Assembly (NCBI RefSeq): GCF_012720115.1
Contig: NZ_VNWN01000007.1
Location: forward strand, 124,001 to 188,000
Source of the DNA: Sneathiella chinensis
Lineage (GTDB): Bacteria; Pseudomonadota; Alphaproteobacteria; Sneathiellales; Sneathiellaceae
DNA: 64,000 nucleotides
Direction of reading: 5' to 3'
In this document: positions 50,129 through 60,426 of the stretch, one piece after another
Numbering within the stretch: position 1 is the stretch's first letter
Layout of the letters: the number at the start of each line of letters is the position of its first letter
Program-made: the position numbers and the translations under genes
The notes under the pieces: model-generated
Seen by the model: only the letters and a program-made list of their open reading frames with translations
What the model was told of the DNA's origin: nothing
Databases searched by the model: none

Positions 50129-50731
50129 TCAGTCTTCCTCTTCCTCCGGGTCGAGGGGGGGCGCATCATCGCCCCGGATCAGGTCATCAAACAGGCCGGA
50201 CGGCTCGGTTTGCAGCAGGCCCGCCGCTTTCAACTCATCAAACCCCGGCAGGTCGCGAATATCATCCAGCCCGAAATGGATCAGGAATTCCTGTGTCACC
50301 CCGTAGGTAACCGGGCGGCCCGGTGTGCGCCGCCGTCCGCGGGGGCGGATCCATCCCGCATCGAACAAGACATCCATCACCCCCCGGCTAAGACCGACAC
50401 CGCGAATTTCCTCAATCTCGGAACGGGTAATCGGCTGGTGATAGGCAATGACAGACAGGGTCTCAAGGGCGGCGCGGCTCAATTTCCGGGTATTTTCCTT
50501 TTCATCCTGAAGCAGCCAGGACAGATCGGGCGCAGTCAGGAAGGTCCATTTCCCGGCCAGCTTCACCAGATTGACGCCCTTGTGTTCATAATGTTTGTGC
50601 AGCAGGTCCAGAATGGCGGGAATATCCGCGTCTTCCGGCAGGCGGGCGGCAATGTCCAGTTCGCCCAATGGCTCCTTCGCGGCAAAAAGCAAGGCTTCCG
50701 CCATGCGGACATGTTCCGGGTTGGCTGTCAT
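50129..50731 (-). CDS. scpB: Segregation and condensation protein B
   Basis: 200 residues. Tandem winged-helix ScpB, part of the SMC-ScpAB condensin that organises the chromosome. Signatures: RMAEALLFAAKEPL, LSRAALETLSVIAYHQPITRSEIEEIRG in part, and GRPVTYGVTQEFLIHFGL. The C-terminus is acidic (DPEEEED). Its start overlaps the scpA stop by four bases, showing coupling. Confidence 0.95.
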   Translation of the reverse strand: MTANPEHVRMAEALLFAAKEPLGELDIAARLPEDADIPAILDLLHKHYEHKGVNLVKLAGKWTFLTAPDLSWLLQDEKENTRKLSRAALETLSVIAYHQPITRSEIEEIRGVGLSRGVMDVLFDAGWIRPRGRRRTPGRPVTYGVTQEFLIHFGLDDIRDLPGFDELKAAGLLQTEPSGLFDDLIRGDDAPPLDPEEEED

Positions 50732-51555
50732 TCGTCCTCACTTTCCTGTCTTTTCTCCCGCCGGGCCCGCACCTCGATCGGGCCGAACAAGTGGGCCTGA
50801 CGCACTTCAAGCTGGCCTTCCTTGACCATCTGCAGGCTGGCCAGCAAGGTGGAGGCCTCGGCCGAACGCCGGGAAAACGGGTCTTTCAGGTTCTTGGGCA
50901 AATAGGCCGTCAGATCGACCCAGTCCGGCACCTTGCCCAGCATCCGCTCCAGCCGCTCAAGGGCTGCCTCCACCGTATAGATGGCGTTGCGCATGAGGCG
51001 CAGAGGGTTCTTGATGCCCTTGCGGTCCTTGTGGGCGGCATAAGCCTGCAACAACTCGCGAAGGGAACAGTCATACCGGGAATGGCGCACCACTTTCACC
51101 CCTTCCGGGCGGCCCCGCCGCATCCGGTCACGGCCCGTAACCTGTCCGTTGATCAGCTTTTCCGCCGCTGTCCGCATGGCCTCCAGCTTTTTAAGCTGAA
51201 AGGCCAGCCGTTCGGCCATTTCCTCACCGGACGGTCCATCCTCCTCCGGCTCTTCCGGCAGCAGAAGGCGGGATTTCAGATAGGCCAGCCACGCCGCCAT
51301 CACCAGATAGTCGGCCGCCACCTCAAGCCGCAGCTTCTGGACTTCCTCGATGAAGGCGAGATACTGTTCCGCCAGTTCAAGAATGGAGATTTTGAGAAGG
51401 TCAACCTTCTGGTCCCGAGCCAGAACAAGCAGGACATCCAGCGGACCTTCATACCCGTCCAGATCGACAACAAGACCCGGCCCTGACGAGGCCGCCGCCT
51501 CCTCAGCATCCAGACGATCCGAAACGTTGAACAGCCCGTTATCCTTCAAGGACAT
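50728..51555 (-). CDS. scpA: Segregation and condensation protein A
   Basis: 275 residues from ATG 51555; the frame is open for 17 more codons upstream, but these overlap the M50 protease gene. An AAAGG sits directly before the ATG, unusually close. The kleisin signature is visible in YEGPLDVLLVLARDQKVDLLKISILELAEQYL (in part) and VMAAWLAYLKSRLLLP. It links SMC heads together with ScpB. Coupled to scpB (ATGA) and 25 bases after the M50 gene. Confidence 0.94.
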   Translation of the reverse strand: MSLKDNGLFNVSDRLDAEEAAASSGPGLVVDLDGYEGPLDVLLVLARDQKVDLLKISILELAEQYLAFIEEVQKLRLEVAADYLVMAAWLAYLKSRLLLPEEPEEDGPSGEEMAERLAFQLKKLEAMRTAAEKLINGQVTGRDRMRRGRPEGVKVVRHSRYDCSLRELLQAYAAHKDRKGIKNPLRLMRNAIYTVEAALERLERMLGKVPDWVDLTAYLPKNLKDPFSRRSAEASTLLASLQMVKEGQLEVRQAHLFGPIEVRARREKRQESEDE

Positions 51556-51580
51556 CCTTTCTGTTGTGGTCAGAAAAACT

Positions 51581-52267
51581 CTAGTCAAACCCCGCCAGTG
51601 TTGCAATCACGGAAATAACCGTGGCGATCGGCCCGCTCATCAGCCAGCGCATGGGGTCCATGTCACTGCCGAACTGACGGAACAGCATGGGCAGCAGGAT
51701 AATCACCCCGATCAGGATCAGAAACCCGAACCGTTCCAACCGGGCCAACGGAATGGCCAGAAAGTTAGGCAGAATGCCGACGGCCACCCGCCCCCCATCC
51801 AGCGGCGGTATAGGCAAAAGGTTAAAAAAACCCAGTACCACATTGAGAACCAAGCCATTTCTCAGGTTCAAGGCAACCCATTCACGCCAGTCTACGGGAA
51901 GATAATCCAGTGCATGAAAAGACAACATGCACAGAAAGGCGAGCAGGAAATTCATCATCGGACCGGCCAGCGCCACCAGCACCATGTCCCGGCGCGGATG
52001 ATTGAGGCGCATGAAATTGACCGGCACTGGCTTGGCATATCCAAACAGGAACGGCGCCTTTGCCATCAGCAACAGGCCGGGAATAAGCACGGTCCCGATC
52101 GGGTCCACATGTTTGAGCGGGTTCAGGGTCACCCGCCCCTGCCGCTTGGCCGTATCATCGCCAAGTCGCCACGCCGCAAAGGCGTGACCGGCTTCATGCA
52201 GGGTAATGGCCAGCAAGGCAGGCAATAGCCAGATGGACACCTGATAGAGAACGTTTCCCATATCCAT
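51581..52267 (-). CDS. Site-2 protease family (M50) membrane protein
   Basis: 228 residues, mostly membrane helices. The active site ITLHEAGHAFAAW (HEXXH) is in the first helix, and the third zinc ligand is in NLLPIPPLDGGRV. This is the minimal S2P type without a PDZ domain, often annotated as a site-2 protease next to nagZ and scpA in alphaproteobacteria. Its substrate is unknown. The start codon shares one base with the nagZ stop (TGATG). Confidence 0.92.
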   Translation of the reverse strand: MDMGNVLYQVSIWLLPALLAITLHEAGHAFAAWRLGDDTAKRQGRVTLNPLKHVDPIGTVLIPGLLLMAKAPFLFGYAKPVPVNFMRLNHPRRDMVLVALAGPMMNFLLAFLCMLSFHALDYLPVDWREWVALNLRNGLVLNVVLGFFNLLPIPPLDGGRVAVGILPNFLAIPLARLERFGFLILIGVIILLPMLFRQFGSDMDPMRWLMSGPIATVISVIATLAGFD

Positions 52268-53313
52268 CAGCCCTCTCCCCGACCGGCAAGCAGGCCCTGC
52301 AATTCGGCCATCATGTCCTCGGTGCCCCCCATCGCCGGGGCCGCCCCGTCAAGGGCGGTCAGGGACTTGTCCAGTCGGCGCAGGGTCTCATCGGAAACCG
52401 CGCCGCAGGCCCCCGCAACCTCTTTCATTTCGTCCATTTTACCGGAACAGTGCAGGATCAGGTCCACCCCCGCCTCCAGCGAGCGCGCCGCCCGCGAGGC
52501 CAGACTGCCCTGCAACGCCTCCATATTCAAATCATCGGACAGCAACACCCCGCCAAATCCGATTTCCCCGCGGATCACATCCTCGATCACACGGCGGGAC
52601 TGGGTTGCCGGATTGTCCGGGTCGATATCCTGATAGACAATATGCGCCGTCATGCCCCACGGGACATGGGACAGTTTCCGGAACGGGACAAAATCACTTG
52701 CTGACAGATCCGAATGGCGGGCCGGAACGACCGGCAATTCAAGATGGCTGTCCACCGTTCCCCGGCCATGCCCCGGCATATGCTTGATCACCGGCAGGAT
52801 ACCGGCGGCAAGGAATTCCTCGGCCACAAAGGCGCCAAGGGTGGCCACAACGTCGGGATTGCCGGAAAAGGACCGGTCCCCAATGACACTGGAGGTTTCC
52901 CCCAGCGACAAATCAAGACAGGGGGAACAATCCACGGAGAAACCAACGCTGGCAAGCTCCGCTGCGATGATCCGGGTGGCAAGGCGCACCGCCCGCTCGC
53001 CCCGGACCGGGTCTTCCGCATAAACGGCCCCAAGGGCGCCGAAGCTTGGCAGGGAATGCCAGTGCGGCGGCCGCAGCCGCTGTACCCGTCCGCCTTCCTG
53101 ATCCACAAGGACCGGCGCGCCCGGTCGCCCCACCGCCTCGCGAAAGCTGTTGATCAGGGCCCGCACCTGATCCGGCGTATCAATATTGCGGGCGAACAGG
53201 ACCAGCCCCACAGGATTGACCGCCCGGAAGAAGTCAACTTCCTCCGGGGTCAGGGTCAGGCCCGCGCACGAGAAAATAACGGCGCGGGTGCCGGTAAAAT
53301 CACTTTTTGGCAA
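52267..53313 (-). CDS. nagZ: Beta-N-acetylhexosaminidase NagZ (GH3)
   Basis: 348 residues. It removes N-acetylglucosamine from muropeptides in peptidoglycan recycling, in the cytosol. Diagnostic: VDQEGGRVQRL, FSVDCSPCLDLS, GDRSFSGNP, KHMPGHGRGTVDSHLELP and LLSDDLNMEAL with the nucleophile Asp. The only plausible start is TTG 53313, with AGGA eight bases upstream; the next in-frame start would cut into the first strand. It overlaps the SPOR gene by 14 bases. Confidence 0.95.
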   Translation of the reverse strand: MPKSDFTGTRAVIFSCAGLTLTPEEVDFFRAVNPVGLVLFARNIDTPDQVRALINSFREAVGRPGAPVLVDQEGGRVQRLRPPHWHSLPSFGALGAVYAEDPVRGERAVRLATRIIAAELASVGFSVDCSPCLDLSLGETSSVIGDRSFSGNPDVVATLGAFVAEEFLAAGILPVIKHMPGHGRGTVDSHLELPVVPARHSDLSASDFVPFRKLSHVPWGMTAHIVYQDIDPDNPATQSRRVIEDVIRGEIGFGGVLLSDDLNMEALQGSLASRAARSLEAGVDLILHCSGKMDEMKEVAGACGAVSDETLRRLDKSLTALDGAAPAMGGTEDMMAELQGLLAGRGEG

Positions 53314-54244
53314 CGAGACAATCCTGTTTTTCCGCCTTCAGGGCCGTACACAGATTTTCCGCACCAGCCCGGTTTTCAAAGGCCCCGGCCTGCAGGCGAT
53401 GGAACATTCCCTTGCCCTTGACCTCGACACTCTGGATGAAATGAGGCACGCCGGTCAGCAGGGCCTTATGCGCCTTTTGAAGCCGTCCCCACGCCTGTTC
53501 CGCCGCATCGGTAGAGCGGAACGCGCCAATCTGAACCCGATAATCACCGGCATTGGCCGGTTTCTTCGGGGATGTTCCCGCCTTTACCGGGGCCGGAGCC
53601 GCAACTTTTTCAGGCTCTGGTGCCGGCTTTGCTTCCGGTTTCGCTTCCGGTTTTGGCTCCGGCTTGGCTTCGGCGGCCTTGGCCTCAACCTCTTTCACGG
53701 TGTTTGCTGCGGTTTCCTGCTCACGCTGGACCTTTTCCACAGGGGTCCGGGCGGCGGCAGTGGCGGCGGCTTCTGCCTCGGTCGTTGCGTCAGATACCGC
53801 ATCGGATGCAGCCTGCCCTTCCGGCTTCGCCATCAGGGTTTCCGCCTGATTGCCGGCTTGCGCCTCGCGCTCGGTTTCGGTGATATCAACAGGGGCCGGA
53901 TCATTGGTGGATTCCTCCGGCGCTTCCATCAGTTTCTCGACCTTTTCCTCGGCCTGCTCCGGATTTAGGACGCTGAACACCTGCTTGTCCTGATGGGGAA
54001 TATCCATGCCGCCCGGATTTTCAGGCTGCTGCTTGACCGGCGAGGTATCCGCCTTGACGATGGGCGGGGCCAGTTGGACCCCCTTTTTCACGCCCTGATC
54101 ATAGGCATACCAGATGCCGATACCGAACCCGGCAACGATGGTCACGGCAAGCGCCGCCCCGATCAGTTTTCCGCGGCTGAAGCGCGGTTCGTCATATTCC
54201 TCATAATATTCTTCTTCTTCCGGAAAATCCTGATGGTTGGTCAA
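53300..54244 (-). CDS. SPOR-domain membrane protein
   Basis: 314 residues from TTG 54244, with GAGGAG eight bases upstream inside the end of the previous gene. Acidic N-terminus (FPEEEEYYEEYDEPRF), one membrane helix (~30-50, LIGAALAVTIVAGFGIGIWYA), a long Ala/Glu/Lys/Pro-rich periplasmic linker (~60-235) and a C-terminal SPOR domain (YRVQIGAFRSTDAAEQAWGRL ... FHRLQAGAFENRAGAENLCTAL, in part). SPOR domains bind denuded glycan at the division septum, so a cell division role is likely. Regular neighbour of argS and nagZ in alphaproteobacteria. Confidence 0.92.
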   Translation of the reverse strand: MTNHQDFPEEEEYYEEYDEPRFSRGKLIGAALAVTIVAGFGIGIWYAYDQGVKKGVQLAPPIVKADTSPVKQQPENPGGMDIPHQDKQVFSVLNPEQAEEKVEKLMEAPEESTNDPAPVDITETEREAQAGNQAETLMAKPEGQAASDAVSDATTEAEAAATAAARTPVEKVQREQETAANTVKEVEAKAAEAKPEPKPEAKPEAKPAPEPEKVAAPAPVKAGTSPKKPANAGDYRVQIGAFRSTDAAEQAWGRLQKAHKALLTGVPHFIQSVEVKGKGMFHRLQAGAFENRAGAENLCTALKAEKQDCLVAKK

Positions 54245-54249
54245 AACTA

Positions 54250-55293
54250 TCACTCCTCTACCATCTCGATGCCAAGGATTTCCAGCCCCTCGCACAATTG
54301 CAATTTCAGGGCGCTCAACAGCCCAAGACGGGCCGGGCGCGTCCCGGTTTCAGTCAGATATTCGGACGACACAAGTCGCTCCTCCCTCTCCAGCCGGAAA
54401 AATAGCAGGGAAAGGTCATGCAGGAAAGCCGACAGATGGATGATATCCCGGTTTCTGAGCGACTGTTCCAGTGCCAATGGCCACTGACACATGAATTTGG
54501 CGATTTTCTGTTCATTGCTCCGCGTCAACACGGAATAATCCACATCAACGGGATCCTCGCCCCCCTCACCCGCGCTTGCCGCTGCCAGCAACGACCGGAT
54601 ACGGCTGATCGCGTAAGGAACGGCAAAAACCGGATTGTCATAGGACTGATCCACCGCCCGGACCGGGCTGAAATGACGGGCAAAGGACGCCCCGTTGGCC
54701 AGCAGGGCAAAACGCACCCGTGGCAGGGAGCATTTGGCAACGGCGGTTCGGGTCGCCATGCCCCGATCCCCATCTTCCGGCGCGGGAGAAAGGGCGTAGG
54801 CCAGCCCCGCCAGATCGGCCACCTTCATCAGGGCCTCCACCTGCCAGAACTGTCTGGCGGATACCAGATCGTCCGTCGTCGCGGGTCGGACCAGCTCAAA
54901 CCCGCCCTGATTTTCCAGCAGGCTCATGCCATAGGCCCGCGCCCGTTCCAGAATGACCGGGATTTCCGCCAGCCAGTATCCCGCCTGCAGGTGGATATTC
55001 ACATATCCGTTGGGGGCCACCTCGGCGGAGCGGACCGACGGCACGGCCTCAACGGCCGCAAGGACCGTGCGGGCCAGACGGTCCCGCACCTCCTCTTCCT
55101 GCCCACTGGCCAACAGCAGGATATTGCTGCAAAGATCGCCCCGGCTTTCCTCTTTCGGGGGGCGCAGGGTCAGGTTTCCTGAGGGTGCTGCCGGACGGGG
55201 GGCCCCGTGCTCCGCCCCCGGATCAGCAGCGGCCTGCTGTTCCAGCACCGCACAAAGCGCCCGCCACACGGGCCTGACATAACTTTCGGACAT
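54250..55293 (-). CDS. ArgRS-like protein lacking the catalytic core (DALR domain protein)
   Basis: 347 residues from ATG 55293; a TTG 12 codons earlier is possible. Alpha-proteobacterial ArgRS is about 580 residues. Residues ~1-130 match its N-terminal Add-1 domain (LRPPKEESRGDLCSN, PNGYVNIHLQAGYW, RARAYGMSLLENQGG). The region that should contain HIGH reads DDLVSARQFWQVEAL. Then about 200 residues of Rossmann core and KMSKS are missing. From ~185 it matches again: VRFALLANG, DQSYDNPVFAVPYAISRIRSLL and the DALR anticodon-binding domain (AFLHDLSLLFFRL, GLEILGIEMVEE). It cannot be a normal synthetase. The frame is intact, and it sits at the canonical argS position, its stop overlapping the ribosome-binding site of the SPOR gene. 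Confidence 0.85.
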   Translation of the reverse strand: MSESYVRPVWRALCAVLEQQAAADPGAEHGAPRPAAPSGNLTLRPPKEESRGDLCSNILLLASGQEEEVRDRLARTVLAAVEAVPSVRSAEVAPNGYVNIHLQAGYWLAEIPVILERARAYGMSLLENQGGFELVRPATTDDLVSARQFWQVEALMKVADLAGLAYALSPAPEDGDRGMATRTAVAKCSLPRVRFALLANGASFARHFSPVRAVDQSYDNPVFAVPYAISRIRSLLAAASAGEGGEDPVDVDYSVLTRSNEQKIAKFMCQWPLALEQSLRNRDIIHLSAFLHDLSLLFFRLEREERLVSSEYLTETGTRPARLGLLSALKLQLCEGLEILGIEMVEE

Positions 55294-55401: not shown

Positions 55402-55752
55402 ATGTTTTCACAAGATACAATGGAACCCCCTGTCAAGCTGTCCGATACGGCTGCCGCGCAGATCAACACCATTGTCCGGGATATGAATTCCGACAAGAAG
55501 ATGCTGCGTGTTGCTGTCAATGGCGGCGGCTGTTCAGGGTTCCAGTACAGCTTTGATCTGGACGACACCCGTAACGACGATGACATGGTCGTTGAAAAGG
55601 ATGGGGCCGTCCTGCTGGTGGACAGTGTGTCCCTGATGTATCTGGCCGGATCGGAAATCGATTATGTCAGCGACCTGATCGGCGCTGCTTTCCGCATCAA
55701 CAATCCCAATGCCACGGCTTCCTGCTCCTGCGGGTCCTCCTTCTCCGTCTAA
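55402..55752 (+). CDS. erpA: Iron-sulfur cluster insertion protein ErpA
   Basis: 116 residues, an A-type Fe-S carrier. The three conserved cysteines are in NGGGCSGFQYSF and the C-terminal ASCSCGSSFSV. It delivers clusters to apoproteins such as those of isoprenoid synthesis. ATG 55402 has only GAGAG upstream; ATG 55423 is an alternative that would shorten the N-terminus by seven residues. Divergent from the ArgRS-like gene. In many relatives a dGTPase gene (dgt) lies between erpA and argS; it is not here. Confidence 0.95.
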   Translation: MFSQDTMEPPVKLSDTAAAQINTIVRDMNSDKKMLRVAVNGGGCSGFQYSFDLDDTRNDDDMVVEKDGAVLLVDSVSLMYLAGSEIDYVSDLIGAAFRINNPNATASCSCGSSFSV

Positions 55753-55912: not shown

Positions 55913-56689
55913 ATGAAAATTGCCAGCTGGAACGTCAATTCCGTCAAGGCCCGCCTGCCCATCCTTCTGCATTACCTGAAGGAAGAGGCCCCGGATGTTC
56001 TTTGTCTTCAGGAACTGAAAGTGGTGGACGAGGCTTTCCCCCGCCTTGAGGTGGAGGAACTGGGCTATAACGTGGAGACCCACGGCCAGAAAACCTATAA
56101 CGGTGTCGCCATCCTGTCCAAGCACCCCATGGAAGATGTGATGCGCCGCCTTCCCGGCAATGACGAGGATGAGCAGGCCCGCTATATGGAGGCCACCATC
56201 AACGGTGTGCGCGTTGCCTCCATCTACCTGCCCAACGGCAACCCCATCGATACGGAGAAATTCCCCTATAAACTCGGCTGGATGGACCTTTTGATCCAGC
56301 GGGCGAAAGACCTGCTGGCCCTTGAGGAGCCGGTGGTTCTGGCCGGGGACTATAATATCATCCCGCAGGACGAGGATTGCTATGATCCCAAGGCATGGGA
56401 AAAGGACGCCCTGACCCAGCCGGAAAGCCGCAACCGCTTCCGCCAGTTGCTCAATCTTGGCTATTTCGATGCCTATCGGACCTTTACCCCCAATGTGAAT
56501 TACACCTACTGGGATTATCAGCGCGGCGCCTGGCAGAAGGACAACGGCATTCGCATCGATCATCTTCTGTTATCCCCGCAGGCCATCGACACGTTGAAGG
56601 CCGTCGGGATCGACAAGGAACCGCGCGGTATGGAACGCCCATCCGACCACACCCCCATCTGGGTGGAACTGGACCAGAAGATCGACTGA
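55913..56689 (+). CDS. xth: Exodeoxyribonuclease III
   Basis: 258 residues of the exonuclease III / AP endonuclease family, acting in base-excision repair. Active-site segments: ASWNVNSVKARLP (Asn), CLQELKVVD (Glu), YNGVAILSK, VVLAGDYNIIP (Asp/Asn) and the C-terminal RPSDHTPIWVEL (Asp-His). A G-rich site (GGGGACC) precedes the ATG. The nearest relatives keep it beside erpA. Confidence 0.96.
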   Translation: MKIASWNVNSVKARLPILLHYLKEEAPDVLCLQELKVVDEAFPRLEVEELGYNVETHGQKTYNGVAILSKHPMEDVMRRLPGNDEDEQARYMEATINGVRVASIYLPNGNPIDTEKFPYKLGWMDLLIQRAKDLLALEEPVVLAGDYNIIPQDEDCYDPKAWEKDALTQPESRNRFRQLLNLGYFDAYRTFTPNVNYTYWDYQRGAWQKDNGIRIDHLLLSPQAIDTLKAVGIDKEPRGMERPSDHTPIWVELDQKID

Positions 56690-56800
56690 CCTTCCACCCA
56701 TCGCCAAGGCCGCCTGTGCGGGCGCTCCCCTTCTCTTTCGCTGATTTTGCAACATATTGTTAGAAGATATGCTGCAAATCAGGACAGAAATGCGGGTCCA

Positions 56801-57313
56801 ATGCTCCACGGTGACGGCTTTGAGCATACCACCCCGATCGTAAAAGCGGGGTTTGACTACTGGCTCTCCAAAACCGGGGGCCGGTCCATGCCCCGTTGGG
56901 CCGATATCAACCCGGCGGAAATGCTGCCCCTGCTGCCCCATATCCTTGTGGTCCATGTCCAGTATGATCCCCTTGATTTCATCGAGCGGATCACCGGCGA
57001 GCGCATTGTGGAGCGCAGCGCCTGCAAGACCATGAATGTGAACTGGCGAAACTGCCCCGAACGAGAGCCCGGCAGCCGCATGTGGACCGCGTTTGAAGAA
57101 GTGGTAAACCGGCAGGAACCCAGCTATCAGATCCTTGCCTATTCAGGGCCAAAAAAAGACTACCTGAAAATAGAGGCCATCATCTGCCCCATATCCGACG
57201 ACGGTAAAACCGTGATCAAGACCATCGCCTTTGTGGATCATGTGGACAAGGCGGATAAGGACCGTTTCCCCAACCCACCGCGCGACCCTGACCCGGATCA
57301 GGGGTCCGCCTGA
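56801..57313 (+). CDS. PAS-domain protein of the PAS_5 / DUF1457 type
   Basis: 170 residues from ATG 56801; a TTG at 56747 would add 18 residues, and neither has a strong ribosome-binding site. The pattern WADINPAEMLPLLPHILVVHVQYDPLDFIERITGERIVERS (in part) is that of the small stand-alone PAS proteins common in Rhodospirillales-like bacteria (R-x-DIDP, dp-x-dF..R..G). The ligand and output are unknown; there is no catalytic domain. The C-terminus is Pro/Asp-rich. It follows xth by 111 bases. Confidence 0.78.
   Translation: MLHGDGFEHTTPIVKAGFDYWLSKTGGRSMPRWADINPAEMLPLLPHILVVHVQYDPLDFIERITGERIVERSACKTMNVNWRNCPEREPGSRMWTAFEEVVNRQEPSYQILAYSGPKKDYLKIEAIICPISDDGKTVIKTIAFVDHVDKADKDRFPNPPRDPDPDQGSA

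Positions 57314-57435: not shown

Positions 57436-60426
<2,991 letters not shown>

Follow-up and report, generated by a model that had tools for sequence, protein, structure and literature searches.

A probably displaced arginyl-tRNA synthetase gene without its catalytic domain is kept at the ancestral argS place in Sneathiella

Introduction

A relative of arginyl-tRNA synthetase (ArgRS) without the catalytic core has already been named in prokaryotes, since a family model exists for NrtL (NCBIfam NF045898, "ArgS-related anticodon-binding protein"). The model has 327 positions and a layout like that of the protein described here, with the Add-1 and DALR domains and no core. Another synthetase-like protein is SLIMP, which we take to be a protein of insects. 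The passages of PMC9437257 that deal with it describe a SerRS-like mitochondrial protein in which tRNA binding is kept and aminoacylation is absent. Vertebrates have DALRD3, according to the relevant part of PMC7237682 a DALR protein without a synthetase core, which binds a subset of the arginine tRNAs and recruits a tRNA methyltransferase. As for the complete bacterial ArgRS, its Add-1 domain is described as reading A20 of the tRNA D-loop (in sections of PMC8975779 and PMC8318970); the E. coli residues listed there for A20 are F36, Q40, A78 and N84, with F82 stacking (PMC8975779).

We noticed no core-less ArgRS of bacteria among the matches listed in our search of the open-licence literature. 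The same literature yielded no paper on NrtL and none on Sneathiella together with a tRNA synthetase; where Sneathiella and argS occur together, the term stands, judging by title, for antibiotic resistance genes.

Here we analyze a gene of Sneathiella chinensis that lies in a 64,000-nucleotide stretch of DNA, hereafter the window. An original prediction, made from the letters of the window, had read it as an ArgRS without catalytic core at the native argS locus.

Results

The gene occupies positions 54250..55293 on the minus strand, stop included, and its frame is intact, as had been predicted: 347 codons, from the ATG at 55293 to the TGA at 54250-54252. We assigned it as an ArgRS-derived gene without core, encoding 347 amino acids, on the basis of the open reading frame, its domains and its relatives. 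Pfam searches identified the Add-1 domain (Arg_tRNA_synt_N, PF03485) at residues 40-102 (54988..55176, minus strand; 26.8 bits against a cut-off of 21.5) and the DALR anticodon-binding domain (DALR_1, PF05746) at residues 226-347 (54253..54618, minus strand; 38 bits against 22.3). The class I catalytic domain (PF00750) had no Pfam match in the protein. Two of the parts that an active ArgRS requires, Add-1 and DALR, are thus present above their Pfam cut-offs, and two others, PF00750 and the HIGH motif, are both absent, which bears out the predicted core-less ArgRS.

The size of the missing part had been put at about 200 residues. The loss of the core stands, but the missing segment is somewhat larger, roughly 240 residues, when gauged on a 593-position profile of the type-B (alphaproteobacterial) ArgRS. 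On this profile the N-terminal matches of 20 short proteins stop at positions 116-174, and their C-terminal matches start at 405-449. The HIGH region had been called unrecognisable, and its motif is indeed gone: the first His is replaced by Asp in 18 of 19 short proteins and the second by Ser in 14 of 19. The region itself, however, can still be aligned, as a strand-helix-strand. Model secondary structure and column counts place this beta-alpha-beta stub of the Rossmann core, with HIGH erased, at residues 132-170 (54784..54900, minus strand).

The S. chinensis genome (99% complete) has one full-length argS, located on another contig, and this is its sole PF00750 match. The encoded protein has all three ArgRS domains according to Pfam and aligns nearly end to end with the E. 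coli enzyme. The active argS that the prediction expected elsewhere is therefore available, at least as a gene that looks active from its sequence, and a genome lacking any other argS, which would have spoken against the prediction, is not what we found. We also considered a trans-split ArgRS and rejected it: in this genome a type-B ArgRS query matched nothing beyond the resident full-length argS and the short gene, and no stray type-B catalytic piece was found with it. The cell therefore has an ArgRS, and the short gene is not one half of a split enzyme.

We searched for relatives of the short gene in 60 genomes: that of S. chinensis and 59 others, comprising 23 of the same genus, 35 of the class outside the family, and G024, from the other genus of the family at hand. 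The short form was present in 20 of the 23 same-genus genomes, with 33-42% identity to the window protein; the three genomes without it are 56, 65 and 66% complete. G024 gave no match in this search, but it has a further degraded copy between SPOR and erpA, in which both domains still score above the Pfam cut-off. The short form is thus kept at the locus across the genus, with a degraded copy in the sister genus, and close relatives with an intact argS at this position, which would have contradicted the prediction, were not found: genus relatives carry the short form. As for the statement that relatives carry the active argS at this place, it is correct for other families of the class but not for the genus and G024, both of which have the short form there.

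Among the 21 genus copies, only that of G009 lacks the start region. The resident full-length argS of the same genome (G009:C12:832409-833487) is split by an in-frame TAG. The damage in both genes probably reflects assembly errors; because the resident argS there also has an in-frame stop, the simplest explanation is an assembly prone to error.

Searching named genomes gave 15 loci, eight of them titled Sneathiella, one Sneathiellales, and six carrying broader labels (including one Rhodobacteraceae). Named species with the short gene include S. chungangensis, S. litorea and S. sedimenti. All 15 loci have erpA-like and xthA-like genes on one side, and 14 have SPOR and nagZ on the other; in the fifteenth, the contig ends within the short gene.

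We also searched 385 genomes of the class for core-less forms with a profile of the short form, which matched in 321 of them at an E-value of 1e-5. Among the matches listed, those covering the whole profile in a single run were all in the genus (5 genomes). Forty genomes were searched again at an E-value of 0.1, namely the 25 genomes outside the genus with one match, G262, 9 of the 64 genomes with no match, and G024, G205, G299, G376 and G599. Outside G024, the matches lay in frames of at least 543 amino acids, except in G262, G026, G167, G374, G043 and G060; there were also two marginal matches in stop-broken frames. Four of the exceptions were read against type-B ArgRS: G262 has a whole type-B ArgRS in which the frame changes, and the matches in G026, G167 and G374 contain core sequence and end at the edge of the locus. 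No second core-less form was found in these 40 genomes, 9 of the 64 no-match genomes included, with G043 and G060 standing outside the four that were read. The G262 locus (L110) holds the whole type-B ArgRS in two frames on one contig, with the frame change in the core, and thus a frameshift, real or of the assembly.

Two types of ArgRS were distinguished by their match to the catalytic model: type A, with an E-value below 1e-75, and type B, with one from 1e-8 to 1e-20. Type A is the E. coli-like enzyme. The 35 genomes of the class outside the family comprise 4 with type A, 28 with type B and 3 with no match, and type A occurs also in further families of the class. It was found in the S. chinensis genome and in 21 of the 23 same-genus genomes, the misses being G002 (91% complete) and G016 (56%). 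BLAST against one seed per type sorted the fetched proteins into 27 of type A and 37 of type B with no ambiguity. The type-B profile matched all 20 short proteins (19 from the genus and the sister-genus copy) with 61-121 bits; the type-A profile gave 19 of them -0.4 to 24.9 bits and did not match the remaining one. A tree was built over 337 shared columns from 20 short proteins, 34 of type B and 8 of type A. All the short proteins, the G024 copy included, group in a single clade (support 100), and the branch that separates type A from type B (100) puts this clade with type B. Their clade is sister to all 34 type-B rows (type-B clade 92) and not nested among them, which is possibly a long-branch effect; many of the type-B rows were taken from high-scoring matches, and the sample is uneven.

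dgt lies beside argS in six of the seven type-B genomes examined (the exception is G036), nagZ lies within 2 kb in all seven, and SPOR stands between argS and nagZ in all four type-B loci fetched. The type-A genomes G028 and G039 have nagZ-dgt gaps of 1.1 and 1.4 kb, which hold SPOR and are too small for argS as well. Considering this loss together with the shortened gene in the Sneathiella family, displacement therefore had two outcomes, clean loss or a shortened gene. The short gene is a descendant of the alphaproteobacterial-type argS without its catalytic domain, and stands at the ancestral argS place. The type-A gene would have been acquired horizontally, and its arrival would have come first.

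The S. chinensis genome also contains two dGTPase-family genes (G000:C18:19488-20738 and G000:C12:1183106-1184365), both away from the erpA-argS place. This lineage seems to have reshuffled both genes of the locus, argS and dgt.

Around the short gene, the window has the following arrangement. The short gene is the first of a same-strand run (all on the minus strand) that continues with a SPOR-domain gene in the same direction (53300..54244; PF05036), a glycoside hydrolase family 3 gene (52267..53313; PF00933) that we take to be nagZ-like, an M50-family peptidase gene (51581..52267; PF02163), scpA (50728..51606; PF02616) and scpB (50129..50731; PF04079), the last four given as the listed ORFs. 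Its divergent neighbour on the plus strand is an Fe-S biosynthesis gene (55402..55752; PF01521), presumably erpA-like, beyond which lies an Exo_endo_phos family gene (55913..56689; PF03372), presumably xthA-like. Farther along, a PAS_5-domain protein gene (56747-57313) precedes a 996-amino-acid ORF at 57436-60426 on the plus strand, which has a glycine-rich start and looks autotransporter-like by eye.

The short gene had been thought to overlap the SPOR gene. This does not hold for the SPOR start that we set, by eye against relatives, at the TTG at 54244, 5 nt past the stop of the short gene; an overlap arises only from a GTG farther upstream in the mechanical ORF. In relatives, a GTG that is in frame with SPOR touches the short-gene stop or lies directly next to it, again by eye. 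The last two codons of the short gene read GAGGAG (54253..54258, minus strand), which from its position is a putative Shine-Dalgarno sequence for SPOR, and every one of the 20 genus copies whose 3' end can be read, the window copy among them, carries GAGGAG, AAGGAG or AGGGAG in its last codons. SPOR thus appears to have its ribosome-binding site inside the final codons of the short gene, and a function at the DNA level may therefore explain in part why the last glutamate is invariant.

Among 19 full copies, dN/dS was 0.22-0.36 in the 12 closest pairs, all of them pairs among six species. In species similar enough for such a measurement, the short gene is under purifying selection; for the lineage of the window copy dN/dS is not measurable because synonymous changes approach saturation (median pS 0.73 across all pairs). 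Mean pairwise identity across 19 genomes was 39% for the short form against 77% for the resident ArgRS, the short form being the more divergent in 171 of 171 pairs. It has therefore evolved far faster than the resident enzyme, and the constraint on it is moderate. Twenty-eight columns are invariant in all 19 short proteins, counting the start Met (the start was chosen by alignment). Where columns are at least 90% conserved in both type B and the short form, 17 have the same residue and seven have switched: H to D142, V to C188, D to S209, E to D283, H to F299, R to Y312 and F to L313. As far as sequence comparison can tell, this is the pattern of a protein on which the constraints have changed, not of one that is decaying.

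We compared the positions that contact the tRNA. The N84 column of the A20 pocket has N in all 19 short proteins, as well as in two left-out genus copies and in the sister-genus copy. The stacking F82 column has Y in 16 and D in 3 of 19, the columns of the GDYQ-like motif have G in 18 and D in all 19, and the A78 column has E in 8, S in 6 and A in 5. F36 and Q40 are kept neither in the short form nor in type B, where H and A are commonest. The pocket residues of the window protein are A93, Y97 and N99; column mapping makes Y97-V98-N99 (54997..55005, minus strand) the equivalent of E. coli F82-x-N84, which reads tRNA A20 (roles from the relevant section of PMC8975779). Four tRNA-Arg genes are among the 41 tRNA genes found, and all four have GGA in the D-loop, which gives A20 (position 20 was set by eye); three other tRNAs compared have no A at position 20. 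On the anticodon side, DALR residues invariant in type B are replaced in the short form (H to F at 299, R to Y at 312), and PHR at 284-286 is lost. The short proteins are acidic (pI 4.6-5.9); the net charge of both domains is about equal in the short form and type B, and is therefore uninformative on RNA binding.

An AlphaFold model built from the 19-sequence alignment (mean pLDDT 88.5, pTM 0.85) gave a confident two-domain ArgRS-like fold, consistent with the prediction. The best 20 PDB rows in Foldseek were ArgRS structures; below the ArgRS rows came LeuRS, CysRS, IleRS and MetRS (Z 10.7-12.7), as expected for the shared class I fold. VIA-align placed 318 residues of the model on chain C of 5b63 (E. 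coli ArgRS-tRNA) at 3.5 A with Z 21.5. Since the superposition spans enzyme residues 1-576, both tRNA-gripping ends roughly keep the spacing of the whole enzyme in the model. The remnant of the Rossmann core appears in it as strand-helix-strand (132-136, 143-162, 166-170).

Discussion

The explanation that we favour, at slightly better than an even chance on the comparisons and the structure model above, is that type A took over, that the native argS lost its core, and that the remainder was kept as a non-catalytic accessory factor gripping tRNA-Arg. The second, E. coli-type ArgRS would have taken over charging, and the native argS would have lost its core by an internal deletion in the ancestor of the family. 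The stripped gene would then have been retained for a non-catalytic protein that grips tRNA-Arg by the D-loop, through the A20 pocket. The anticodon arm would be held too, with altered contacts, and the reading of the anticodon altered or lost; such a protein would serve as an adaptor, chaperone or sensor for tRNA-Arg. The geometry of both tRNA grips in the model, the invariant A20 asparagine, A20 in all four tRNA-Arg genes and the changes on the anticodon side favour a tRNA-Arg protein that holds the elbow. The first three of these lend indirect support to the tRNA-Arg-binding role that the prediction had suggested. A more specific version, which we put forward tentatively and rate below an even chance, is that in the Sneathiella family the displaced native gene itself, rather than a duplicate of it, was carved in situ into a dedicated tRNA-Arg regulator or adaptor that reads A20, with its anticodon-side contacts rewired. 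If true, bacteria would have in this displaced-argS adaptor an equivalent of DALRD3 or SLIMP.

The same changes on the anticodon side could be read otherwise. The protein is acidic, its DALR residues are replaced, and it has new invariant residues (C188, S209, F299, Y312 and L143) that occur rarely or never in type B; it also adjoins SPOR-nagZ in 14 of the 15 named loci, all those with a contig that extends to these genes. This would suit a protein-binding scaffold that has lost tRNA binding and either regulates the resident ArgRS as its partner or was recruited to the downstream peptidoglycan and division genes, two roles that the prediction had also named. We consider this unlikely, as the A20 asparagine is invariant and the overall ArgRS geometry is retained in the model; moreover, argS itself already stood next to SPOR and nagZ in the ancestral arrangement, so the position is no evidence of recruitment. 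The DNA-level role of the last codons gives some weight to a further reading, to which we assign a slightly smaller probability still: the gene would be a decaying remnant serving as operon leader, its translation delivering ribosomes to SPOR through the Shine-Dalgarno sequence in the last codons. This motif in 20 of 20 copies, a SPOR start that touches, abuts or follows the stop by 5 nt, the fast divergence and the more degraded sister-genus copy are all compatible with it. A leader, however, would require neither 28 invariant columns nor a dN/dS close to 0.3 nor a two-domain protein with a confident fold, and the type-A genomes G028 and G039 lost the gene and yet kept SPOR beside dgt.

An assembly artefact, a strain-specific truncation or a fresh pseudogene has a negligible probability in our estimate. 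The only damaged copy is that of G009, whose full-length argS is stop-interrupted as well, whereas the short form is present in 20 assemblies from relatives in the genus and in that of the sister genus, which excludes the artefact scenarios. Given this distribution, the dN/dS of 0.22-0.36 and the 28 invariant columns, the short form is neither an artefact nor a fresh pseudogene.

Returning to the favoured reading of a retained tRNA-Arg-gripping factor, the old gene would be expected to vanish after a takeover by another synthetase type, as it did in two other type-A genomes; the Sneathiella lineage represents the other outcome. The retention of the old gene as two RNA-holding parts suggests a new job, which may still involve arginine tRNA. 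The boundary of the deletion, the retained tRNA contacts and the swapped residues can be read over about 20 species. The lineage offers a natural experiment in which to see how much of a synthetase stays useful once catalysis is gone, as well as a simple bacterial case for asking what a core-less tRNA-binding protein does.

Compared with NrtL, the window protein matches NF045898 in one run (41-343 to 31-322), and full-length ArgRS, one per type, matches it in two stretches. Its score of 63.6 bits is far below the cut-off of 340, which none of 14 control genomes passed; the sister-genus copy scored 64.5 bits and three genus copies 34.5-69.7. The protein shares with DALRD3 a C-terminal DALR domain and the lack of a synthetase core, but the N-terminal part of DALRD3 is described as having no recognisable motif (in the part of PMC7237682 that covers its domains), whereas the window protein keeps Add-1 above the cut-off. 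SLIMP possibly derives from a duplication of mitochondrial SerRS, according to the corresponding passage of PMC9437257, whereas here the native enzyme's own gene was stripped. With type-B ArgRS the short form has in common Add-1, DALR, the operon position and its origin by profile and tree; it differs in lacking about 240 residues of the catalytic domain and in the erased HIGH. What is special about the short form is that a non-catalytic synthetase relative is the displaced native gene itself, at its own locus.
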